Assembly: GCA_022497155.1 (NCBI GenBank)
Contig: MU385775.1
Location: forward strand, 1-64,000
Length of the DNA stretch: 64,000 nt
Reading direction: 5' to 3'
Source: Whalleya microplaca
Lineage: Eukaryota > Ascomycota > Sordariomycetes > Xylariales > Xylariaceae
Shown: one piece after another, positions 5,622 through 48,539 of the stretch
Numbering within the stretch: position 1 is the first letter of the stretch
Layout: every line of letters begins with the position of its first letter
Program-made: the position numbers and the translations under genes
Notes under the pieces: generated by a model
Databases searched by the model: none
Told to the model about the DNA's origin: nothing
The model's input: only the letters and a program-made list of their open reading frames with translations

Positions 5622-6848
5622 TTAGTACTTCGACGTGGAGCTGCCAGAATTGTTCTTCAACGCTTCAATGGTGGAATCATACGCGGAATGCTTGCTGAAA
5701 TCTTCGAACCAGAGCAGTGCGTCACCTTCGCCTTCGAAAGTCAACGGAACCCAGCTGAAAGGGTCATAGAAATCCCAGATCGTAACCCCCACACAATCAG
5801 GGACCTGCACACAAGCGCCGACAGACTACAAATGTAAGTCAGTATTTTCAATGCTATGAGATAAGTCATATCAAAACTGTCAAAAGCAAACTTACATTCT
5901 TATAGGCCTCTGCTTGCCAGCCCAAGCTCGTCTCATTGGACGGTGTTTCAATTCTGACGTCCAATTCAGTTACTGCTACCTCGACACCGAGCGCAGCAAA
6001 TGATTGCATAACAGAGATCTGTTGGTCGAGCGTCGGAGCGCTGTTCGCCGCGAAGTGTGCTTGCAATCCAACTCCATCAATCTTGATACCCTCGTCCTGA
6101 AGCAATTTGACAATCCGTATGGCACCCTCGCTCTTTGCACCAGGCCACTCTATATTGTAGTCATTGTAGTAAAGCTTGACGTCCGGCTCGATTTCCGCTG
6201 CAAGGCGGAATGCTAGTTTAATATATTCTTCGCCAAGGACCTTATAGAAAACCGATTCGCGGTATGTGCCATCCTCATTCAGCGCCTCGTTAACCACGTC
6301 CCACGCATAACATTGCCCCTTGTAGTGTTCCATGACGTTTCTGACATGGTCGGTAATAACTTCTCGTAGATCCTCTGGCTCCCACTCCGTTTCCTCCACC
6401 CATGGCGCAAGTTGGCTGTACCAAACTAGATTGTGGCATCGCAGAATCTGGCCCGTTTCAGCGGTGAGGGAGGTGACGACGTCACCTTCGGTAAAATTAA
6501 AGACACCCCGTTCCGGCTCGGTGAAGAGCCACTAGAAGGGCTAGTGCATTAGCAATAGTACGGGCTTGAGGTCCAGTTGGAATGATAGCCCTATAATGTG
6601 CGACGCACCTTCTGACCATTTGTCGGTGTTGTTTGGCCAAACTCTTTGGTGTCTCTCATGATCTCATCGTACTTTGGATAAGCCTCCTCAAGACCAGCGC
6701 GTTCTCGCTTCCCTGGCGAGTCTGTTGCTGCGCCAAAATATTTCAGACCTGCTTCTTTTGCGTAGACATCCAGTTGAGCCGCCGTTAGCGGTAGTACTAT
6801 AGTTGTCAAAGACGCTAACAGCAACATATTCAGTTGACCAATGAACAT
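5622..6848 (-). CDS. Endo-1,4-beta-xylanase, glycoside hydrolase family 10
   Basis: Exons are 6848-6609, 6531-5896 and 5825-5622, giving 359 residues. Residues 1-24 form a signal peptide (MFIGQLNMLLLASLTTIVLP), so the enzyme is secreted and cuts xylan in plant cell walls. Family signatures are in order: FGQTTPTNGQK joined to WLFTEPERGVFNFTEGD across intron 1, then HNLVWYSQLAPW, the acid/base Glu in WDVVNEAL (about 162), LYYNDYN, GVGLQAHF, and the nucleophile Glu in AVTELDVR (about 269). The C-terminal exon gives VTIWDFYDPFSW. The introns are small, with GTGCGT/CTAG and GTAAGT/GTAG borders and conserved frame. There is no carbohydrate-binding module, only a short Ser/Asn-rich tail. The length fits a single-domain GH10 enzyme. 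Confidence 0.93.
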
Positions 6849-12583: not shown

Positions 12584-14248
12584 CTAATGCTTTTGCCAAA
12601 CCAGTTCGACGACCTCGTCGATCTCGCCCAAGGCGGAATTACCACCCCGCACGTATAGTTGTTTCAGATCGCCATTGCTCATGAGCTGTGACTCCCGCAG
12701 CTTGTAGCTCTGCTTCTGCTCCGCCTTATACCGCTCCCTCAGCGGGCCAATGCCGTATTCAAAGCCATCCTGACCTCTAATCCACGTCGCCTCTACGGTG
12801 TCTAAGTCCACGGAATCGAGGCCCTCCGGATACCTCGCGATGGAAAACCCGTTCGTCAGCACCGTATCTTTGCCGAACCGCCACCGCTGGAGGAAGCAGT
12901 CTCCGCAGAACGAGGCCGCCGTTGCTATCTTGTCGACTGGTTCGTCGTACCAGCTCTTCCAGTGGTGGAGGTTCAGAGGCCGGAGGCCGGCCTCGAAGAA
13001 TCCGCTGACGTCGCCCCTGATGTCCTGCTGGTACAGGCCCGGCAGAATGGTGAGCCTCGCCTTGGAGTTAGAGTATATGCAGTCCCGAATGATAATATCA
13101 CCTTCCTTCTCGTGTCCTTCATTAACACATTGCAACACCGTGCCACTAAGCCTTTTCGCCAGCGACGCAGACAAGAATGCGCCGGCGCCGCCGAAAGCCA
13201 TCATCCCATAACGGCGGACCTGTTCGAAGTCCTCGGACAGTGTTCCCACGTACGTATCTTTGTTGTGGTTCAGTGTGGCGAGGGAATCCGATAGGGGTTT
13301 CAGATGGGGAAAGAAGGTGTCGTCGTCCAGGAAGCCGTACCATTGGGTATCGGCGTGGCCGTGCTCCATCATGGGAAGAAAGACAGCGAAATGATTCTGT
13401 GACGTGGTATACTCTTCATCGAGCGGCTTTATTAGCGTCACATCCATGCCGGCCACCTTAAACTTCTGACTCAGCTCGTCCATTTCGCTGGGTAGTCTAC
13501 TACTCGCGTCCGTTACGACAGCCACAAGTTTCGCACCGGAACCGGAAAGCCATGTAGCAAAGGGTTCTATGGAAGAGTCAAGTCGGTGATAGTCGGTGGC
13601 AACGCCGAAGGTGAGGTGCGTGAATGACTTCTGAGCATACGGCTTGGGGACTTCAAGCTTGATGGGCGTGGATTCGGGCACTTTCGCGTTCCGACAGTTC
13701 CAAAGGTTGATCTCGACTTGGTCCTTGATCAGCGGTTCGGTAATGTTGGCCACATGGTCTCTATCAATGGTAGCCGAGAAAACGGGGCGGATGTGATGTC
13801 GACTGTAGCGCACACGCTCTGTGAATTCTAGCTGCACGCTGGCGCGCACCAGCAACTCCAGATCCTTGGGACAGTCTTTGCTGTTAGGCACGGGCAAAGG
13901 ATGTTCGCCCTTGACGGCATCTCCTTCGGCGCTGCTGTCGAATCCGGGCGCGGGGGCTGGTGGCGAGTCTGGATGCTGAGCTGCCGGCCGCGGCGGCGTT
14001 GATCCCCCATTGTTATTCGGTGCCTTCGCTGGGACCCCTGGGCTGAGGATTCCGTCGGTGCCCTTGGTTACGTCGGTCGGGTTGGGTTCCTGTGTCGGGG
14101 TCGCATCTTGAATAGAAGCGACATGAGAGCCTCCTGTTGTGTAAGGCTGCTGGCCTCGGTTATAGAGGTGGAAGGTTGTGTAGGTTACGAGGAAAAGGAG
14201 GACGGCGCTGGCGAAGACAAATACGCGGGGCACCTTGGAGTGAAACAT
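12584..14248 (-). CDS. Glycosyltransferase family 31-like type II membrane protein
   Basis: A single-exon frame of 554 residues. A short cytoplasmic tail (MFHSKVPR) and one membrane segment at about 9-29 (VFVFASAVLLFLVTYTTFHL) precede a Pro/Ser/Asn-rich stem up to about 125. This is the layout of a Golgi type II transferase. The catalytic part contains FGVATDYHRL and WYGFLDDDTFFPHL, with the metal and nucleotide-sugar binding DDD at about 308-310, followed by FGGAGAFLSASLAKRL and a GDIIIRDCIY segment, as in fungal fringe-like GT31 proteins. The probable role is adding a hexose to protein or lipid glycans in the secretory pathway. Donor and acceptor cannot be read from sequence. The 5' leader is rich in GTAT/TACG repeats. 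Confidence 0.85.
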   Translation of the reverse strand: MFHSKVPRVFVFASAVLLFLVTYTTFHLYNRGQQPYTTGGSHVASIQDATPTQEPNPTDVTKGTDGILSPGVPAKAPNNNGGSTPPRPAAQHPDSPPAPAPGFDSSAEGDAVKGEHPLPVPNSKDCPKDLELLVRASVQLEFTERVRYSRHHIRPVFSATIDRDHVANITEPLIKDQVEINLWNCRNAKVPESTPIKLEVPKPYAQKSFTHLTFGVATDYHRLDSSIEPFATWLSGSGAKLVAVVTDASSRLPSEMDELSQKFKVAGMDVTLIKPLDEEYTTSQNHFAVFLPMMEHGHADTQWYGFLDDDTFFPHLKPLSDSLATLNHNKDTYVGTLSEDFEQVRRYGMMAFGGAGAFLSASLAKRLSGTVLQCVNEGHEKEGDIIIRDCIYSNSKARLTILPGLYQQDIRGDVSGFFEAGLRPLNLHHWKSWYDEPVDKIATAASFCGDCFLQRWRFGKDTVLTNGFSIARYPEGLDSVDLDTVEATWIRGQDGFEYGIGPLRERYKAEQKQSYKLRESQLMSNGDLKQLYVRGGNSALGEIDEVVELVWQKH

Positions 14249-14425
14249 GTCACTCTATCCGTCGCATTGCTGGGAAGATAGACGAATACAGGATAAGGAT
14301 GTACGTATGCGACAGGGTCTATCGGCGAAGCCTATCCTCCTGTATATTTGCTCGGGTAGGCAAACAGGTAAGTAGGTTTTCGCTCAATACTTTCCCAAGA
14401 ATTAAGTTAGGTGAAGCTATCGTGT

Positions 14426-24948: not shown

Positions 24949-25798
24949 AGCCCTGATTATAGCCCTTGCTACAATTATGGCGGCTGTGATATATATATTT
25001 ACCTAGGTACCTAGGTAGAGGCCTTTAGAAAAACATGGAAGCTATGGTAAAGGTACATGGAAAACACATACAGATTAGGTGGTGCAGCAGGTTACAATTA
25101 CATTGCGGGAGGGCGGGGATGATGTATATTGTACTGCTATCGAATCAGACTACATGTAGGTACTATTGAAATAGCAATTGCCTTTGGCAAACCAACTCGA
25201 AACTTGGCTTGAAAGAAACTTGTTCTCTGCCTTCCGCCAGAACTAGGTCATACCAATTATTTCATGCCAGCAAGACTCACATGCAGTTCACCTTCGTATC
25301 GAGCAAACAAAAAAGAGCCCATGCACTAAAAATTTGTTTCCTCCCTCCTACCCCCGCCTAATCAAGGTCACCTACTTGCGAATTCACTTCTACTGGCGGA
25401 TTTACTTCTACCTGCGAATTCACTTCTACCTGCGCATTCACTTCTACCTGCGCATTCACTTCTACCTGCGCATTCACTTCTACCTGCGAATTCACTTCTC
25501 AGCCAAGGTGGAAAAAAAATCCCAATAGCCCAAACATATTTCTTGTCCCCGGCTTCTACCAGTTCGAGTCCCTCGGTTTCATCCAACAATATATACGCGC
25601 AAGCTCACTCTCCCGTCAGGTGCACTTCTCGGAAACACTTCAACTTGGCACAAGATTGGGTTGTCCCTGGCACCTAACCTACGTACATGCAAGCTCACTT
25701 CTATGCGAAGAAAACGCGAACCCACAGCATTTAATTTTCCTTGATTTGACCTTTCAGAATTGTCATCTTTTGCACTGTCTTCCCCCCCTCACGCGACA
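24949..25798. other. Intergenic with an 18-base tandem repeat
   Basis: This spacer precedes the 25799 gene. It contains CTAGGTACCTAGGTA-type sequence near 25003 and the 18-base array listed separately. The last 100 bases are C/T-rich, as in many fungal leaders. Confidence 0.5.
25381..25497. repeat. 18-base tandem repeat, about seven copies
   Basis: The unit is TTCACTTCTACCTGCG plus CA or AA. Since 18 is six codons and no stop occurs, both strands stay open across the array. That explains short frames here without implying a gene. Confidence 0.85.
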
Positions 25799-31917: not shown

Positions 31918-32972
31918 TCAAGGTGGCGGGCGTGGAAGAAACACGGAATCGGGACCAACAGTCGGATCCTCAACTGGCGTCGAGTGCTGATCCGCCCACG
32001 CGACAATTCTGTCAAACTTGCGGCACTTGTGCTGCGTGCTGAAGTCCGGATATGCGTCCGCCCATCCTTCAACCCAGTTGTATGTTACGATGCCGACGTC
32101 GGCCTGGCACATCAGGACCTGGCGCAACATGTCGATGCAGTGGTCAACGTGGGAGCGGAGGACGGGCTCACTGTCAGTGAACTCTGTCGGCTTATTCTCT
32201 GGAAGGTCGTAGTAGGTGCGGTACGTGTATTTGCGGATGAGGTTCTGGCCATTCCTGTGAACCTCTCCTAGGCCAAGATATGGGGACATGGGAGCAGAAT
32301 AGAGACTTACCAGACAGTGTAGCTGGTGAAACACTTCGACTCCGACATCATACATTCCGCCTTGTTCCTCTGCATACTTCACGGCTATGCGGGACTTGCC
32401 GATCCTGTCCACCACTTCACCGTCAACACCGGAGTTGTTCACTTGTTCCGAGTCAGTGAGGATCTAACATATGGGTTAGGTTATCAAGGTCTTACTATGC
32501 GTGATCCACGTCCATGCATCATCAAGCTTCTCATTCGGGGTTCCCTTGTAAACGCTTTCGTATTCCAAGGCCCCGCCAAACACGACGACCTCGTATTCTA
32601 TCGCATTAGAATCCGGCTCAAGTAAAGGTGCTGTTGATGTGAGCTTTTTCTCGAAGTGTCTCATTGATGAAGTGACTGACAGTAGAAAGACGTCTTCGCA
32701 GCACATTCTACGTCTGTACATTGGCATTGAGTCGGTTTAGAACCAGTTAACACAACAATGAGGCCGAGGAAAACCAAGTTAGCGACTCCCGAGGCCACAG
32801 CCAATACCTTTAGAACAGTCCTCCAGTGTGAAGACCCTTCTCTAAAGCGGTAGAGACGAGGGAGCAATCCATCCTTGGAATCGTAGTCGTGGATGCTCCC
32901 TGAGCTCAGCGATAATCTTACGTCCGAATATAAAGGACCGTAAGAAGCGGTCTCTTTCGATTCCTCGTTCAT
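31918..32972 (-). CDS. UstYa-like (DUF3328) oxidative cyclase
   Basis: Exons are 32972-32681, 32630-32496, 32441-32311 and 32244-31918, giving about 294 residues. The layout is that of the UstYa family: a cytoplasmic N-terminus, one membrane segment at about 54-76 (LKVLAVASGVANLVFLGLIV), a lumenal domain with SFYSPLLEPDSNAIEYEVVVF, SVYKGTPNEKLDDAWTWI, and the two hallmark HxxHC motifs, HQLHC at about 181-185 and HVDHC at about 218-222. The second is followed by IDMLRQVLMCQADVGIVTYNW. In fungal dikaritin RiPP pathways these proteins carry out oxidative ring closure on Tyr or Phe side chains of precursor peptides. Here the next gene upstream encodes a Tyr-rich repeat protein. Intron 2's acceptor (AACAAG at 32442) was chosen because the alternatives give stops or a 32-base intron. 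Confidence 0.9.
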
Positions 32973-34726: not shown

Positions 34727-35298
34727 ATGCATCTGATCAAGTTCTCCGTCGCCACACTTGGATGGCTTGCTTCTGCCTCGTTCGCCATTCCAGTTACCAG
34801 CAATGCCCTCGATAGGTAATACACCCACCTTTTGAAAAATTCCCCAGCCTTCCTAGAAACGACCTCTAGGACAGTCGGGATCCTACTGAGGTCAAATACT
34901 ATGATGAACCCTCTCCACCTGACCTCGATGCGTACATATTCTGCCATTTGAGGCCTTCCAGTCCAGTCAAAGCTAATGTCTATGATAGTCGTGAGCCTTC
35001 CAAGGTCAAGTATGACAAATATGGGAGAGATGCGAGCAGCTTTGTTGACGTGTACGGTTTCAATATCTTGAAAATTTCAATCTCGTTAGCACTAATATCG
35101 AAGGTAGCCGCGAGCCCTCCAAAGTCAAGTACGACAAGTATGGGAGAGATGATAGCCATGATATCGAAGCGTATGTTTTTAATCTCAAGATCATTTAGTA
35201 CTATTTGGTCCTAATTTGGTGACAGTCGGAATCCTTCCAAGGTCAAGTACGACAAGTACGGCCGGGCTGAATCTTCAGAGGCCGAGGCCTTGAACTAA
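34727..35298 (+). CDS. Secreted tandem-repeat protein, candidate RiPP precursor
   Basis: Five exons are inferred: 34727-34815, 34875-34931, 34989-35051, 35108-35170 and 35226-35298, giving 114 residues. Exon 1 encodes a signal peptide (MHLIKFSVATLGWLASASFA). Each later exon encodes one repeat and all four introns (55-59 bases) are phase 2. The core PSKVKYDKYGR is identical in repeats at residues 50, 71 and 92; a degenerate first copy (residues 31-49) keeps VKY. Repeats are joined by acidic linkers such as DASSFVDV and DDSHDIEA. There are no KR, RR or KK pairs, so a Kex2 site is not seen; single Arg follows each core Gly. Introns have consensus-like branch points (GCTAAT, CACTAAT, CCTAAT). The neighbouring UstYa-like gene and Tyr-rich core suggest a dikaritin-type peptide precursor. 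A secreted disordered repeat effector is the main alternative. No single open frame covers it. Confidence 0.78.
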
Positions 35299-35893
35299 GG
35301 TATCAAGCCGGGGGGAAGATAGCACATTTGAGTCAGCTATACTAAGGTTATCTCGGTATTACGGGTCTCTTAGGGCAGATGTTATTTTGGATATTTTGCG
35401 AAATCTAACGTCCCATGCCGTAGCTATACTTTTGGACGGGAGACAAAGCTTATCGACACTCGCTAAGATATACTTGCTTATCATATGCTATTCCTTTCAT
35501 TCTACAAGAAGGACTTGGTGCGGAGGACGGGGATTAACCATAGTCCAGATAAAATTGTTCATTCGTTTGCTACCGGAGGTGTCCGCAATTTTGCCAGCCG
35601 AACTCATCTCGTCAGCTCGTGTCAGTGATTGTGTAACACAAGAACCCAGTAGAATAACCCCTAGCAACAGATACATGTACATGCATGTGCCACAGTAGAA
35701 AAGGGATATAACAATGTGACGTCATTGCTTTTAATTAAATAAATCACGCTGCTTCGTTAGAGTATTTGATGTTTCTTTTCCCCTCACAATTAGTTGAGCT
35801 TCTCGCCAAACATAAAGAGCATTGACCCTAGGAAGTCTCTATCATAATAATTCCAACTCAGCCCCTTCGACATCGCCAAAAACGAAAAAGAAA
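35299..35893. other. Spacer downstream of the repeat gene
   Basis: A 595-base gap before the acetyltransferase. It contains the probable terminator region of the repeat gene and the acetyltransferase promoter. Only incidental short frames are present. Confidence 0.5.
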
Positions 35894-36836
35894 ATGGCGC
35901 CCTGGGAAATTGTCCCCTGTACCGTTGCCGACGCGGGTGCTCTGGCGCGCAATAACATGGGCGCTTACTGGGAGGACCCGACGTGGATCCTGCTGTGGAC
36001 GAAGGACATCAAGCAGGAGTTTCTCATCGAACAATGTGCAAAGCGCATGCCACGCAATCTACTACGCGATCGCGAAACGCTCCGCCACCAGAAGGCGGTT
36101 GACGCATCATCGGGCGCAGTCGTCGGGTATGCGCGTTGGATTCTTCCTTCTGCTAGAACTGTGACCGCGGGAGGTGAGCCGGAGTGGGCCGAGGCACAGG
36201 TCCCAGACGTCGGTGCCGACGAGAAGAAGTCGTTTGAGCACGTAGCGAGTAATGCATGGTGGAAGTGAGTAACACCCAGAATCATCTATTGAAAATAGAT
36301 TATTTCCTCCCCTGCCTTGATTTGTCTGGGCGAATGAGCTCTGTCCCAGGCGACAAAACTTGCGCTTGTTTGCCACATCATTCGCAAAGAGGATATGCTA
36401 ACTCTGAATGCTACAGTCCTAGGGACGACATGAGTGGCCTAGACGAGAAGAACCTTATAGTGAGGAATCGCATCCTGGCAGATAAACCTTACATCGGTAC
36501 GATAACTCATTTCGCATCATATTTTCCATTTATGGCAGTGAAGAACTTCAGTTTAACCATTCATTTACTGACCAAAGCATAGAGCTGGACTACCTAGCGG
36601 TCCACCCCGATAATAAAGGTAAAGGCATTGGTACAACACTTGTACAGAGTGGCATCGAGCAGGCCGAAAAGATGGGGCTTGATATCTTCACGCTCGCTTT
36701 CAAGATGGGTCGAGGTATCTACGAAAGGCTTGGTTTCAAAGAAGTTGACCGCGTGATCCAGGATGACTCTGCCTATGGGGGTCTCGGCGAATACGGAGCA
36801 TATTTTATGGTGTACCAATGTTCTCACAAGAGATGA
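35894..36836 (+). CDS. GNAT-family N-acetyltransferase
   Basis: Exons are 35894-36264, 36417-36496 and 36583-36836, giving about 234 residues. The start MAPWEIVPCTVADAGALARN was preferred to an upstream ATG 24 codons earlier because the extra segment is low-complexity. The GNAT fold is seen in the end of exon 1 (VVGYARWIL, strand beta-4 region) and in exon 3: LDYLAVHPDNKGKGIGTTLV, where the acetyl-CoA pyrophosphate loop is the Q/RxxGxG/A-type KGKGIG. IYERLGFKEVD is the last conserved helix and strand. It probably transfers an acetyl group to an amine on a small molecule. It is the nearest gene downstream of the repeat-precursor gene on the same strand, so it might tailor the peptide (for example at Lys), but such genes are common and the link is only positional. 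Confidence 0.85.
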
Positions 36837-38167: not shown

Positions 38168-39191
38168 ATGGCTTCCGCAAGCATAACGCCAAGCTTTGGC
38201 GCCGGAGACTACGTCAAGTTCTTCGGCGCCGGCGCACTTGCAGCCACTCTCACTCACGGTGTAAATATCCCAACCTAGCCCTACACATTCGTCCCTCGTT
38301 CCTCCAAAATCTCATGAAGATTGACCAAGTTCACAGGCCGCAACACCCATAGACGTAGTCAAGACACGGATACAGGTCGACGATGCGCTCAAGGGGCAAA
38401 ACATGGTGCGCGCCGCGCGGCAAATCGTTTCCAAGGAGGGCGCATCCGCCTTACTAACCGGCTTCGGCCCCACCGCCGTCGGGTACCTGGTGCAAGGTGG
38501 CGGCAAGTTCGCCGGGTACGAGTACTTCAAGAAGAGGTTCATCGACATGACCGGGTCGCAGGAGAAAGCGACCCAGCGCCGCACGGCCATCTACCTCGGC
38601 GCCAGCGCAACCGCCGAGTTCTTCGCCGACATCGCGCTCTGCCCGCTCGAGGCGACGCGCATCCGCCTCGTCTCGCAGCGGGGGTGGGCGTCCGGGCTGA
38701 GCTCCGGGTTCATGCGGTTGGCCAGGGAAGAGGGACTCCGGGGTTTCTACTCCGGTTTCATCCCCCTGCTCGCGAAGCAGGTTCCCTATGCGGTGGGCCA
38801 GTTCTCCGTTCACGAGGCTGCCGTCGAGGTCATATATCGCATGATGGGGCCCGATAGGAAAGCCAAGATGACGCAGTTACAGTCCACGGGTGTGGAGCTG
38901 AGTTCGGGGATCGTCGCCGGTGCAGCGGCGGCGGTGCTTTCGCATCCCGCCGATACGCTGTTATCGGCGATCAACAAGGGCGCGGGGGATCCGAAGCAAG
39001 GCGTTACGAGTAGGATGTTTTCGCTTGCGCGCGAGTTTGGGCCCAAGAGGTTGCTACTGTCCGGCTTAGGGCCGCGTGTGGTCATGACGTGCGGGTTGGT
39101 GGCTGGACAGTTCGTCATTTATGCGCAGTGCAAGACGCTCGTGGGCGCTCCTCCTGGTATAGAGATTCATAAAGAGACATCATTGAGTTAG
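38168..39191 (+). CDS. Mitochondrial carrier, phosphate-carrier type
   Basis: Exons are 38168-38260 and 38337-39191, giving 315 residues. Three carrier repeats are visible through their signatures: PIDVVKTRIQ in repeat 1, PLEATRIRLV in repeat 2 and PADTLLSAIN in repeat 3. GPTAVGYLVQGGGKFAGYEY and PLLAKQVPYAVGQFSVHEA are characteristic of the phosphate carrier subfamily (yeast Mir1/Pic2 type). The protein probably imports phosphate, or in the Pic2 group copper or phosphate, across the inner mitochondrial membrane. The intron starts GTAAAT and ends TTCACAG, and phase 0 is kept. It is a housekeeping gene, although its position next to possible secondary-metabolism genes is noted. Confidence 0.9.
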
Positions 39192-40944: not shown

Positions 40945-42857
40945 TCAAGAATTGCTCTTGTCGTCGCCGTATAAGTCCATTGCAAGAGTATTTCGAGAAT
41001 AGAACGTCGACATCTTGTATTTACTCTCCCCACGATATTGCTCCAGTTCTTCCAAAGCTATTTTACCTTCCCGCTCCATGGTCTGGTGGAACTCCTCGCT
41101 GCGAGGTGTGATACTGCACTCGAATGGTTGGGGTCGCATGTTGAGTCCATTCCTAGATTATTACTGTCAGCTTTATTTGCAAGCAAATCCAATACAAATA
41201 GACTTTTATGGTGTTGAACAGAGGGCCAACTCACGTATAGTTAAAGATGTCCACCTCAACAATGCTTCCGTCCGCACGCTTTTTCCTCTGGATATTAAAC
41301 CCCCATAGGAGCCTGGCCACTGTGATCCAGACTCCTTGTTCAGCCAGTGCCTGTCCCGAACATACCCGCCGACCCCATCCAAATGTCATGTATCCTCTTT
41401 CTCCTGGAAAGGGTCGGCTGTCTGGGTGCCCAGGAAGGAATCTGTTTGGATTGAAACGGTCGGGGTCGGGAAACTCGCGCTCATTGTGATGAATAGCCCA
41501 TACGTTGCCTTGAATCCATGACCCTTTGGGGATCAGCCAGCCGTTGTAGTAATCATCTTGTGTCGGCGCATGAGGCTGACCTCCAATAATAGCCACCGAC
41601 CGCCACCGCAATACCTCCTTAACAAATGCTTTGACGTAGGGTAGATTTTCCTCATCTTCCCAGTTCGGACTCCGGTGTGGGCCAACTACGCGATCAAGCT
41701 CTTCTTGTGCCGGTATTACAGCCTCCGGGAACGCAACGCAAGCCAGGATAAACGTGATCAATGTACTGCTACTCGTGTCGGATCCAGCACCAAACAGATT
41801 GCCCGTCAATGCAGAGATTTCTGCTTCCTTCAAGTCGTACTTCGATCGTTCCGCGAACAAATGATTGACGAATGAACCTTCGTGACCCCCTTTCTTAGCA
41901 GCCTCGTCAGCCAGCGCGTAGAAGAAATTAAAGCCCCGTTTCTTCCCGAGACCATACTTCCAAGGCGCAATCTCATTGGGGAATTTCGCTAAAAACGGAA
42001 ACGTCTCCATGAGCATGGGAAACGTCTTGCCAGGCACGTTCAGGTCCGCAGCGAGATGCATCGTGGCGATGACCTCGGTAATAATCGGATCATCCCAGCT
42101 CGCGACGCGGCGCCCAAATGCAATGATGGATACGACGCTGGTGGCGTAGCGCTCGAAGTGCTTGACGTAGTCGGCCGGTGCCCTCAGCAGGTCATACGCC
42201 ACAACCCTACTCTCGTTGTTCTGGAACTGCCGGTACCGCCGCACGGACTGGATGCCGACGCCGTGATGCATCAGCTTGCGATGTACGCGCCAGCGGTCGC
42301 GCTGTTCAGCGCTCGCCGTGTACATGTTTACCAGGTTGTCCTGCCCGTTGCCGAGTTCCGCGAAGACGATCATGCGCGGTCGAGATGAGTAGACACCTGC
42401 ACGCTTCTCGAAGAGTTCGGATGCGGCCCATGCGTCGTTTATCCAGATGGTCGGGTTTCTGCTAGATGTCAGCATAGGCTTGTATAGAGAGAATGTCGGT
42501 GTCTCTTACCGCCCAACCCATACCGTGATTAAAGGGGCATTATATTTCTTAGAGAGCTCTTCGAACCAGATCCACGGCTTGCTATCCGGGAGCATAAACG
42601 TGTTGCCTACTATTGGCCAAGGCAAAGGGCCAGGGGGCTGTGATTATCTGAGTCAGCTTTAATATGCTTACATGGGTGGATAGGGGCTGGCCACTTACCA
42701 TCTTTGACCGCATCCATAGCATGTAAACATAGTCGATTATCAACGTCGCAACGCCAATCACAAGGATTGACCAAACCAGATGTAAGGGCTGAAGTTGACT
42801 CAGAGCCTTGCTCCCAGGCCCTGCCTTCAGGCTCTCGAAAAGCTGGCCGAATAGCAT
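40945..42857 (-). CDS. Cytochrome P450 monooxygenase
   Basis: Exons are 42857-42699, 42637-42510, 42458-41235 and 41152-40945, giving about 572 residues, with every junction keeping frame. One membrane anchor (LVWSILVIGVATLIIDYVYM) is followed by the proline-rich hinge PPGPLPWPIVGN, split from the anchor by intron 1. The I-helix segment is GAGSDTSSSTLITF, the K-helix ExxR is in KEVLRWRSV, and the PERF-type region reads DRFNPNRFLPG. The heme-binding loop FGWGRRVCSGQ carries the Cys ligand. It sits on the ER membrane and oxidises an unknown substrate. The overall pattern resembles fungal P450s of polyketide and other secondary-metabolite pathways. It is 5.6 kb from the repeat-precursor gene, with a carrier, a Rossmann protein and the acetyltransferase between. 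A second ATG about 87 codons upstream exists, but that extension is not P450-like. Confidence 0.92.
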
Positions 42858-44415: not shown

Positions 44416-46524
44416 TTAGATAAAAGTGAATGTCTCTGTTGTGCTGTACTTTTCAAATGCTTCGTGTAAAATCTTGTGATCCCTCCACCCACTGGGACTA
44501 TGTTGAGGGTGCAATATGCCTAGCCTCGAATAAATCTGGTGTTTCTTGTCTTCTCTGTGTAAAATCAAGTATTGAGACCAATTCTCATCTGTTGAGATGT
44601 AAAGTAGATAGACTTTTTGCGGGGGCTCCTGGCCCGATGTATAATATTCCTTAAGATCCATGTGGACCTTGAACGAATTCACCTCAATTCCCGGACGGTA
44701 TATGCGCAGTGGATCGGGGGCATCTGTATCATTTGGCCAAATGAACCAGACCGGTAGTAATCGGCCACGCAATATCAGAGAGCAACTACTGACAGCCCCG
44801 AAAGGGTTGTCGTCCACAGAGTGGAAGGTGTAGTCGATTACTTCCAGGGCCCATACTATCGCATCCTTACGTGGAGGAAGATAATAAAAAACGGTACCTG
44901 AACAGGCCCAGGACCATGTCGGCAAGGTTGATAGTCTCCGCTTCGAGTCCTCGAGGGGCTCATTTACGCACCATAGCAAGTCCTGTTCCAGAGAACCCGA
45001 CCAGAGGCCAGCTATGTAGTGCTCCCCTGGACGAATAGCCTGGAATTGTTCGGCTACAGCACCGATGGCAGGAAGCTTGTCTTCCTCGTTGGTCAAGTGC
45101 ATACCTTGATAGCCAGAAACCATGGTCCTCCATATCCAGATGACATCCTCTGTCGCAAGATGAACTCTCGGGAATATTGCTTTCTCCAAGGTGCCAGGCT
45201 CCTTAGAAAATATACTGTCCTGACGACTGCGGACAACCACTTCATTACCCTGTGGCTGCTGGCTTATTTGTTTCTCAGCCTTGTTGACGATCTTGTCGAA
45301 AAACTTTTGTTTCTTGAAAAATCCTGTCAGGATTTTGTTAGGAAGAAATTCATTTTGAGTGAGACCGCACTCGCAACTGGCAGCGCAGAAGCACTCAAAG
45401 GCCAGCTCCTGTTTTGTGAAAAATACAACTCTCGTTGATATCAAGAGTTCCTGATAGGCCCAAGCCCGGGAGAACAGAGGTGCTGCATCATCGTTCCAGC
45501 TAAAGTATGTGCCATGGAGTTGTCGCATATAGAGGGGCCAACGTTGATCGTTGAAGCATAGCTCGGCTAGCAATATTGGATTGAAGTCGCTCATGGCAGA
45601 GAATAATCCAGAATCGCTGTTGTCTCCCCAAAGAGCTGCCAGAGTTACGTAGGAGTGCTTGTAGACGTTAAACATTCGCCCTGATTCCCGAGCCCAGTCT
45701 TCCGGGTCATCCTGAACTATACAAACGCCATCAATCCACAGATACTTGAGGCCTAATCGACGTGTAAAGATAACCGCGTCCTGGAAAGTCTTAGGGAACG
45801 TAGACCATGCCATACGATTCTTGTGGCCCTGTAATCTTGAAGGCGTCGTCTGGCAAGCAGGTTGGTGCCCACCCCAGCAATAACTAAGTGCAGCATACCG
45901 TGATCCGCTAGGCACGTTTTCGACGAGTCGCACGTCCCCATCCAGGTCGTCGGGATTGACATCAATGAGTCGTGTAGGGACTGAATACGAACCAGTTACC
46001 TGAGATTCCCAACAATGCTGATGAGATTCGATTTGGTCTTTGGCCCAGAGGGAAGAGGCTTGTGTTGAGGTGTCAATGCATGTTCGTGGTGCCTTGGGTA
46101 TTGGGCGGAGAGCCTCCACTTCGCAGAACTCTGAAGGGCAGAATAAGGCAAATGACCTATGGAAGGCTCGATGCGGGTAGAATTTCTCTTGGAGTTCCTG
46201 TATTGGGGGCCTCCCGTTCTTAAGGATGAGTCCCTTCTCATAAGCCAGTAGTTCAATTTGGCAGCGTATGCAATTTTTCCTATCAGGGTTTGAAAAGAAT
46301 ATGATTAAACTCATTACGGATTGCATTAGTTTCCTCGGATCACCCATCCATCGACAAGATTTACAAAGAGGTTTCTCAGCCCAACTAGGTGACATGGAGT
46401 CAGGAACGCTGGGCCGTGAGGAATTCCACCATTCGGGTAGGATGATCTGGGGGGGGGGGCTGGGCTTTCGTCGGCTTCCTCTGTGGGAGTTGACGAGTGT
46501 TGCTGTTCCATCTCGCGGTGGCAA
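44416..46524 (-). CDS. HET (heterokaryon incompatibility) domain protein
   Basis: A single-exon frame of 702 residues. The HET domain starts at about 209 with RYAALSYCWGG and continues through WSTFPKTFQDAVIFTRRLGL, LKYLWIDGVCIVQDDPEDWA and MFNVYKHSYVTLAAL, matching the three conserved HET blocks. Before it are two CxxC pairs, CKSC at about 54 and CIRC at about 85, suggesting a zinc-binding N-terminus. The Arg/Lys- and Pro-rich first 30 residues look disordered. A long C-terminal region with conserved Trp-containing strands (LPTWSWACSGTVFYYL, typical of HET proteins) completes it. HET proteins trigger programmed cell death when incompatible strains fuse, and may act like fungal innate-immune receptors. 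A run of nine or more G near 46450 lies inside the coding region. Confidence 0.93.
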   Translation of the reverse strand: MPPRDGTATLVNSHRGSRRKPSPPPQIILPEWWNSSRPSVPDSMSPSWAEKPLCKSCRWMGDPRKLMQSVMSLIIFFSNPDRKNCIRCQIELLAYEKGLILKNGRPPIQELQEKFYPHRAFHRSFALFCPSEFCEVEALRPIPKAPRTCIDTSTQASSLWAKDQIESHQHCWESQVTGSYSVPTRLIDVNPDDLDGDVRLVENVPSGSRYAALSYCWGGHQPACQTTPSRLQGHKNRMAWSTFPKTFQDAVIFTRRLGLKYLWIDGVCIVQDDPEDWARESGRMFNVYKHSYVTLAALWGDNSDSGLFSAMSDFNPILLAELCFNDQRWPLYMRQLHGTYFSWNDDAAPLFSRAWAYQELLISTRVVFFTKQELAFECFCAASCECGLTQNEFLPNKILTGFFKKQKFFDKIVNKAEKQISQQPQGNEVVVRSRQDSIFSKEPGTLEKAIFPRVHLATEDVIWIWRTMVSGYQGMHLTNEEDKLPAIGAVAEQFQAIRPGEHYIAGLWSGSLEQDLLWCVNEPLEDSKRRLSTLPTWSWACSGTVFYYLPPRKDAIVWALEVIDYTFHSVDDNPFGAVSSCSLILRGRLLPVWFIWPNDTDAPDPLRIYRPGIEVNSFKVHMDLKEYYTSGQEPPQKVYLLYISTDENWSQYLILHREDKKHQIYSRLGILHPQHSPSGWRDHKILHEAFEKYSTTETFTFI

Positions 46525-48539
46525 TTTGAGATGAAATGTTAACCCAGTAGTATATTTCGATCGATTGAGTAAGTATCTATCTCTTATGGCGGTTGCGAAT
46601 TGCAGTACAACAATAGTGACGTGAATCTGACATGAATTGATCTCTTTTGCTGCGTTCTTTCAGCAGCATTGTATCAAGTATGTATGTATGTATGGGATTG
46701 CTGGCGGGGTAGAAAGACGCGATCAGCTCAATCCCACGGCATTATGCAAGTTGGTAGAAGTCTTGCTTAAGACATGAAGGGATTGGCGTGCTGCTTCCTC
46801 TGGTTCACACAGATTCCCCGAATGCTACCCTTACGACCATATGTTGTATGTAAGTATATAAGTAGTATGACGAACTGGTTATTGCTACCTAAATGATCAA
46901 GATACTTTCATACGTACGTACAGCTAGATCCGCATATATGATTTTTAGTACCTGAGGGCTGAAAGTAGACTTTGTGAGTATCTACATATGTAGTGCGAGG
47001 AACTCCGATGTCTTTATCAGATTAGTAAGCCCTGCTATGTATGTGTACGGATTAATGACACATGGCTTTCTCTGATCCTCACTAACTAACTAACTAGTTT
47101 TCAAGTCAGTATCAGGCTCACAATGTTGTCGTGGTTATATAATATGAGATACATGTACTTATGATACCATGCGAGACTACATACAGCCTACAATATACCT
47201 ACTACTTGAACTGGCCTTGAGCTAGTAAATACAGATCGCCCAGCACATCTTTTCACTGCAGTTGAAGTTAGGTATGGGCTTGCTGCCGAAGACATTGAAA
47301 TTGAGAATATGACATGTATGCGTAAATACTACATCTATATATGGTGTGGCTTCATGAACACTGAATACATGCATATAAGTACTTAGTATGTATGCTGCAG
47401 TCTGGTTTTCCTATCATCGACATATCGGATATAAGGGTCTGCTATATGGCCAACAATGCAAGAGCCTCTTTCAATACCTACTTCGGTATGTAGTTGAGGG
47501 TAGAATTATAGAAAATGTTTTGGAAAGTTAAGCCCGTACCTAGGTAGGATATCTGTGTACTGTAGAATATTATGTACATACAGATTACTGAACATGTCGT
47601 TAATAACCTTCTGGAGTCTAATAAATTAGGGGCTGCTCAAACGCCTCATCTGTAAACCGTGCCTACATGTAGGTACTGCGTACAGTTTACTGCGTACCTA
47701 ATACATATAAAACGTCTGAGATGACGCTAGACCCGAATGGTCAGTGTCCTCCACAACTCCACAGGTGCTCCTGATGCCCCGTGCACTGGAAGCTCCACCG
47801 GCGGACCAATGAGTGGTCGAGACTTCCCCCTGTACAGGGATATATATATGCAAGTCTGGTTGTAGGTACGGATTAGCTTGTACCATGTACTTTGTATTTG
47901 CTCCATGTACTTTGTACTTCATTTGCTGTATTTGGGCTTCTGTCTGATGTTCGTCCAATCCTTGCCAGCCCCTGTCATCAATCACATCACGCTTTTGCAT
48001 CAGGAAACTTTTCCCACTTGCTGCCCTGCGTGCCTGTCCTGCCGGTGTCATTCTGTTCTAATTTTCCTAGAAGACCGTCTGTGTGTTCGTGTAACATCGC
48101 AGGCCGTACATGTGTATTGATATTTTCCTTCGAAATCAAAACTCCAAGCCGCGTCGTGTCGGCTCCTTGCGCCGTCGTCGACCTGCGAAGAGCTTCGTTC
48201 GATCCTCGTCAGTCAGGCCGAGACATCATCACAGCCCGAGAAACGCCGTACCTATCGTCCGAGTTCATTAGCCTGTGCCGACCGAGTCTGCCATCGAACC
48301 CCCGTTTGGTTTCGGTTCGCTTCGTTCTGTTCTGTTCTTGATATCCGTCTGTCAGCAGCTATTCATGAGCACTAGCGTCCCATCAGGCGCCAATCGCCAG
48401 TCCCAAGGCAAACCCCGTCGTCCTCTGCTCCCCTGCTTCCGCTACCCGTCCGATCCTACGACGTGCTCCGGCCCACCAGTCTATTGTACTTGATGTCTCG
48501 GAGGTAGTGGGTGGGGCTGAAGACCGGCCGTCGAGGGAC
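46525..48539. other. Intergenic, 2 kb without a defended gene
   Basis: AT-leaning sequence with a (GTAT)n tract near 46679-46692 and several short frames. From about 48130 the strand becomes C/T-rich and coding-like, and part of it probably belongs to the 5' end of the kinase gene (see that entry). Confidence 0.5.

Follow-up and report, generated by a model that had tools for sequence, protein, structure and literature searches.

A candidate secreted multicore precursor of a UstYa-modified peptide with one repeat per exon in Whalleya microplaca

Here we describe an apparently unannotated five-exon gene, the product of which is probably a secreted multicore precursor for a ribosomal peptide modified by UstYa (dikaritin-like). 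It lies in the window, that is, the whole stretch of DNA analysed, which is the initial 64 kb of C66, a 247,671-bp contig in a genome of 48.1 Mb in 114 contigs. The precursor is of a known kind, varied in two ways: its repeats are bordered by single arginines, and each repeat is carried by one symmetric phase-2 exon. An intact gene for a UstYa oxidase adjoins it and is transcribed divergently. When spliced in silico, the five exons yield a protein of 114 residues in an unbroken frame, MHLIKFSVATLGWLASASFAIPVTSNALDS-RDPTEVKYYDEPSPPDLDA-REPSKVKYDKYGRDASSFVDV-REPSKVKYDKYGRDDSHDIEA-RNPSKVKYDKYGRAESSEAEALN, and the gene is laid out as follows:

34727..34815, + strand: exon 1, with the ATG, the signal peptide (residues ~1-20) and a short leader to ...LDS, from the spliced translation
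34816..34874, + strand: intron 1, 59 nt, phase 2, GT-AG, without CTRAY near the acceptor
34875..34931, + strand: exon 2, repeat 1, degenerate (RDPTEVKYYDEPSPPDLDA)
34932..34988, + strand: intron 2, 57 nt, phase 2, GT-AG, CTAAT near the acceptor
34989..35051, + strand: exon 3, repeat 2 (REPSKVKYDKYGRDASSFVDV), 63 nt
35052..35107, + strand: intron 3, 56 nt, phase 2, GT-AG, CTAAT near the acceptor
35108..35170, + strand: exon 4, repeat 3 (REPSKVKYDKYGRDDSHDIEA), 63 nt
35171..35225, + strand: intron 4, 55 nt, phase 2, GT-AG, CTAAT near the acceptor
35226..35298, + strand: exon 5, repeat 4 (RNPSKVKYDKYGRAESSEAEALN) and the stop codon

Judged from the spliced protein by inspection alone, the N-terminus is a signal peptide (MHLIK, a hydrophobic stretch, then SFA/IP, with the slash here and below marking a cut or border). 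Splicing reproduced the exon and intron coordinates of the earlier note, together with its intron lengths of 55-59 nt and its phase-2 junctions, and all four introns begin with GT and end with AG. That no single frame covers the gene was likewise borne out, as none of the three unspliced forward frames spans it. The core PSKVKYDKYGR is present in three perfect copies spaced 21 residues apart, as had been said, and these start at residues 52, 73 and 94; the positions first given for them (50, 71 and 92) are those of the Arg that opens each unit. Three of the four repeats originally counted thus carry the perfect core. The other, the exon 2 unit DPTEVKYYDEPSPPDLDA, is a degenerate first repeat, so that identical cores could derive from three units and not four. 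All four exon borders fall inside the codon immediately 5' of the unit-opening Arg.

We take the gene model to be very likely real because of a third-position bias among the repeats and a branch-site-like motif in three of the four introns. Over the first 14 codons of exons 3-5, a stretch picked after the repeats were seen, third positions account for 10 of the 13 variable nucleotide columns (binomial 0.0016); the pairwise third-position excess becomes weaker when 19 codons are taken. CTRAY lies 6-20 nt 5' of the acceptor in introns 2, 3 and 4, compared with 3.5% of the 4,084 AG dinucleotides in the window, and is absent from intron 1. A frame-independent scan for repeated peptides returned no group for any of three shuffled versions of the 64-kb window; on the real window, it also returned groups at minisatellite-like DNA. 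With looser settings, none arose in three Markov rounds on 202,615 bases from other UstYa neighbourhoods, and the real DNA gave other groups, some of them plain tandem repeats. Neighbouring introns (1-2, 2-3 and 3-4) align with each other more closely than do all but a few of 300 shuffles, which may be a trace of tandem duplication of exon-plus-intron units; since the alignments include the common splice ends, we do not rely on them.

The neighbour of the precursor gene, on the other strand, has the following features:

31918..32972, - strand: UstYa (PF11807, DUF3328) oxidase gene, from a genome family match, Pfam, a splice check, relatives and the database model P0001
32972-32681, 32630-32496, 32441-32311 and 32244-31918, - strand: its four exons, encoding 294 residues
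32973..34726, no strand: divergent intergenic region between the UstYa and precursor ATGs, from the coordinates

The two ATGs are 1,755 bp apart, and the region between them may hold a shared promoter. The UstYa gene is intact, with one transmembrane-like stretch (by eye) and the motifs HQLHC at residue 181 and HVDHC at residue 218. Two such HxxHC motifs, beside a PF11807 match above cut-off, are what we take to be the criterion for a UstYa oxidase. The PF11807 score is 162.4 bits on the genome itself and 182.6 bits for P0001, and the match in the window ranks first among the 34 UstYa rows that the genome yields. P0001 (hypothetical protein F5B20DRAFT_432849, Whalleya microplaca) is the best protein-database match and equals our gene model save for one retained 66-nt intron, the residues of which are absent from all four relatives compared (P0002, P0004, P0008 and P0009). 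At E<=0.001, 69 proteins are related, from Hypoxylon, Daldinia, Aspergillus flavus, Tolypocladium, Trichoderma and others. No solved structure resembles UstYa at E<=1, and the NCBIfam search of five proteins gave weak rows below cut-off only, none of them for P0001. The nearest paralogue among the loci read is on C1 (45% over 106 residues), where no three-copy repeat was found.

It is unlikely, in our estimate, that the repeats are cut from a secreted protein as linear, unmodified signalling or pheromone-like peptides to which UstYa is unrelated. The XP after each border Arg does resemble the Ste13 signatures of pheromone precursors described in the relevant part of PMC6339444, and in the portion of PMC7329392 on neighbouring genes only 22% of 7878 KEPs have a DUF3328 neighbour. 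Yet the 24 merged UstYa loci place about 0.23% of the genome within 1,755 bp plus 500 bp, so that adjacency to UstYa by position alone has a chance of ~0.2%; the precursor has no Cys and matches no mating-factor family in Pfam at E<=1; and each perfect core holds two Tyr. Conserved Cys and Trp are given for the ascomycete alpha-pheromone peptide in that part of PMC6339444, whereas the precursor has no Trp outside its signal peptide. According to the same portion of PMC7329392, DUF3328 genes occur most often directly beside KEP genes, and 65.6% of the repeats that have a DUF3328 neighbour contain Tyr, versus 38.2% of those without one.

The reading that we prefer, a precursor modified by UstYa, has to account for how the cores would be released. 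No KR, RR, KK or RK occurs anywhere in the 114 residues; the usual Kex2 signal is therefore absent, which counts against our explanation. The seven Arg of the protein occupy two regular contexts, one at the unit borders, the other being the KYGR of each of the three good units. The borders read LDSR/DP, LDAR/EP, VDVR/EP and IEAR/NP, with the general form [LVI][DE]xR/[DEN]P. A kexin P-domain is encoded in the same genome, on C11. We infer transcription, cleavage, trimming, cross-linking, a product and a function for the precursor, along a route that would begin with entry into the ER by way of the signal peptide. Kexin, or another Arg-directed secretory protease, would then cut after the single border Arg ([LVI][DE]xR/) and after YGR; a Ste13-like dipeptidase would trim the exposed [DEN]P dipeptide, and a Kex1-like carboxypeptidase the C-terminal Arg; and the adjoining membrane-anchored UstYa would introduce an oxidative cross-link in the Tyr-containing core. 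For expressed KEPs, products that fit cleavage after a single Arg have been reported, and Ste13, by the passage on it in PMC6339444, prefers to remove an XP or XA dipeptide exposed by Kex2, which DP, EP, EP and NP match. On these two grounds we propose the core SKVKYDKYG, with a calculated [M+H]+ of 1087.578 for the linear peptide and 1085.563 with one cross-link. According to that passage, ustiloxin and phomopsin precursors are not among the predicted substrates of Ste13, which counts against the proposed trimming.

The lack of dibasic sites would also suit a protein that is never cut, its repeats acting as a chain in a wall-associated or effector-like secreted product, and the section consulted of PMC6374014 describes fungal secreted repeat proteins that remain wall-bound or serve as effectors. 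We think this very unlikely: Arg and XP are conserved at each border with the exon edges beside them, UstYa is the neighbour, and UstYa loci of the same genome carry KR-separated repeats.

Fifteen further contigs were read around those loci, over unequal neighbourhoods of ~5 to 30 kb; with the window, this makes 16 of the 17 UstYa contigs, C3 and one of two C4 places being left out. Repeat precursors were called by eye, on the strength of an open frame and a start resembling a signal peptide. Opposite-strand rows of real repeats, one L030 row and the minisatellite-like window rows near 35-230, 490-1200, 1800-1950 and 25370-25505 were dropped from the count. On this basis, seven of the 16 contigs carry a repeat precursor (C13, C23, C27, C31, C4, C78 and C66), and five of these seven have dibasic sites. 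Beside the gene on C66, they are:

C13 (L029), about 916887-917130, - strand: three 21-residue TNDYPKYGSASEYEAVN units with KR sites, near three UstYa hits
C31 (L031 6500-7100), about 359500-360100, - strand: three ~26-residue units (PTVDGTSTRGQWVSSYSND...), no dibasic sites, adjoining UstYa, apparently with one intron after the signal peptide
C4 (L041 about 970-1216), near 538870-539116, - strand: three KR-separated 19-residue units P[DAE][KAE]VDFxxVGDEY, close to UstYa
C78 (L040 4800-5001 with L042): four KR units, near UstYa
C23 (L022 8000-8400), + strand: two KR units only, near UstYa
C27 (L026 1550-2650), - strand: about 25 almost identical units of 14 residues, KR in nearly all, near UstYa

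An in-frame stop in the unspliced C4 frame suggests an intron there. The other nine contigs read gave no three-copy repeat; two-copy matches occur in L033, L014, L017, L019 and L027, and some of these nine could harbour a precursor. Among the seven precursors, that on C66 is alone in carrying one repeat per exon. The units of C66 and C4 resemble each other (P.KV.[YF]D..G) at a score reached by 41 of 2000 shuffles, uncorrected for the 15 unit pairs, which is only a hint of kinship; for the C13 units, the resemblance is weaker still, with 171 of 2000 shuffles reaching the score. Dibasic sites in five of the seven precursors, set beside their absence from C66 and the degenerate repeat 1, would fit a decaying or non-expressed relic that has lost both. 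Such a relic seems to us decidedly unlikely, in view of a spliced frame without stop or frame break, the third-position bias among its repeats and the intact UstYa gene next to it.

As a candidate UstYa substrate, the C66 precursor shares with the dikaritin precursors (ustiloxin, phomopsin and asperipin-2a type) a signal peptide, multiple Tyr-containing repeats and an adjoining UstYa. It differs from them in having no dibasic separators and each repeat on its own exon, dikaritin precursors being given, in the part of PMC9769878 that defines them, as a signal peptide followed by repeats separated by KR, RR or KK; and it differs from dikaritin clusters in that a single UstYa is the only tailoring gene recognised in its vicinity. 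The core rule stated for ustiloxin and phomopsin in the text drawn on from PMC7329392 is YxIx, and no YxI occurs in the spliced C66 protein. Like KEPs (Le Marquer 2019, Umemura 2020), the precursor is secreted and has at least three tandem repeats of at least eight residues. Unlike them, it lacks dibasic separators; the Umemura 2020 screen, as set out in that text, asks for three or more tandem repeats, each 8 aa or longer, with KR, KK, RK or RR between them, and the gene thus falls outside the published KEP definition and is not filed as a KEP. The epichloecyclin precursor GigA is also multicore, secreted and from an ascomycete, and its product is a set of Tyr-linked cyclic peptides. In the excerpt of PMC9233826, an N-terminal Ile of epichloecyclins is thought to be linked to an internal Tyr, whereas none of the three C66 cores contains Ile. 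Closest to hand is the C13 precursor, which has the same 21-residue period, a YxKYG motif per unit and UstYa neighbours, but also KR before each unit and all of its repeats in one exon.

In the search for relatives of the precursor itself, no protein among 523 candidates (about 63-200 aa) matched at E<=1e-3. A profile search at E<=1 gave five proteins, all like the C13 precursor and none like that of C66; relatives of the former are P0070-P0074 (Trichoderma, Xylaria, Rhypophila, Hypoxylon and one more source). A search of the genome with the repeats found three matches, all of them exons of the C66 gene itself. In Pfam, the sole row for the precursor was DUF2686 at E 0.23. The string KYDKYGR is absent from the literature searched; YPKYG, YDKYG and KYDKY brought up no title on a fungal peptide among the matches listed, and NDYPKYG-like strings an unrelated match only. 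Nor did any title among the matches listed concern a fungal RiPP precursor with a repeat per exon, a comparison that lies apart from the gene structure of GigA. The earlier note had said that standard searches would miss the gene, and in accordance with this the UstYa protein is in the protein database (P0001) and the precursor search was empty. Its remark that it knew no described family holds for the core string and not for the kind of gene, which is known from the dikaritin and other UstYa RiPP precursors and from KEPs. Its view of the gene as a precursor for several identical short peptides gains support from the adjoining intact UstYa and from the repeat precursors at other UstYa loci of the genome; it had overlooked the UstYa neighbour, the missing dibasic sites and the degeneracy of repeat 1.

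In the rest of the window, Pfam recognised no tyrosinase, methyltransferase or transporter of larger clusters in 26 segments (two of them overlapping, with small exons partly covered). Two other genes were matched that we see no reason to link with the precursor:

41234-42505, strand not given: cytochrome P450, from Pfam
38325-39188, strand not given: mitochondrial carrier, from Pfam

The next gene 3' of the precursor (35891-36700, + strand) looks by eye like a GNAT acetyltransferase, and two segments of it had no Pfam match; a lichen UstYa cluster with an acetyltransferase is mentioned in the excerpt of PMC12048977. The window also contains a HET-domain (heterokaryon incompatibility) gene (44419-46659, - strand), a Fringe/DUF604-like glycosyltransferase ORF (12587-14254, - strand) and a GH10 exon (5869-6531, - strand). 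Short-period, minisatellite-like tandem DNA repeats lie at 25367-25505 and at 35-230, the latter at the contig start.

The same excerpt of PMC12048977 describes two clans of UstYa clusters without a detectable conserved repeated precursor, terms this a mystery and suggests a precursor located elsewhere or a single core. The gene on C66 represents another concrete way to hide a UstYa substrate, with the repeats split over short exons and no dibasic sites, and the question of hidden substrates can be tested directly by scanning around UstYa genes for repeats in a splice-aware, frame-independent way. It is also of a type that the similarity-based survey of RiPPs in Hypoxylaceae would overlook; as stated in the section of that survey bearing on this point (PMC8403587), identification relies on similarity to characterised precursors, and the true diversity is beyond what the survey can estimate. 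We suggest tentatively, as something possible though short of probable, that there is a class of UstYa-modified precursors in which each core has a symmetric phase-2 exon to itself, with a border of single Arg and XP. If so, its genes would escape ORF callers as well as KEP screens based on dibasic sites, and part of the UstYa clusters that seem to have no precursor would be explained. The inner repeat exons are in phase 2 at both ends, which lie near the cleavage site, so that duplicating, losing or skipping an exon would alter the number of cores with the frame kept; in such a class, core number would be variable through exon gain, loss and skipping.
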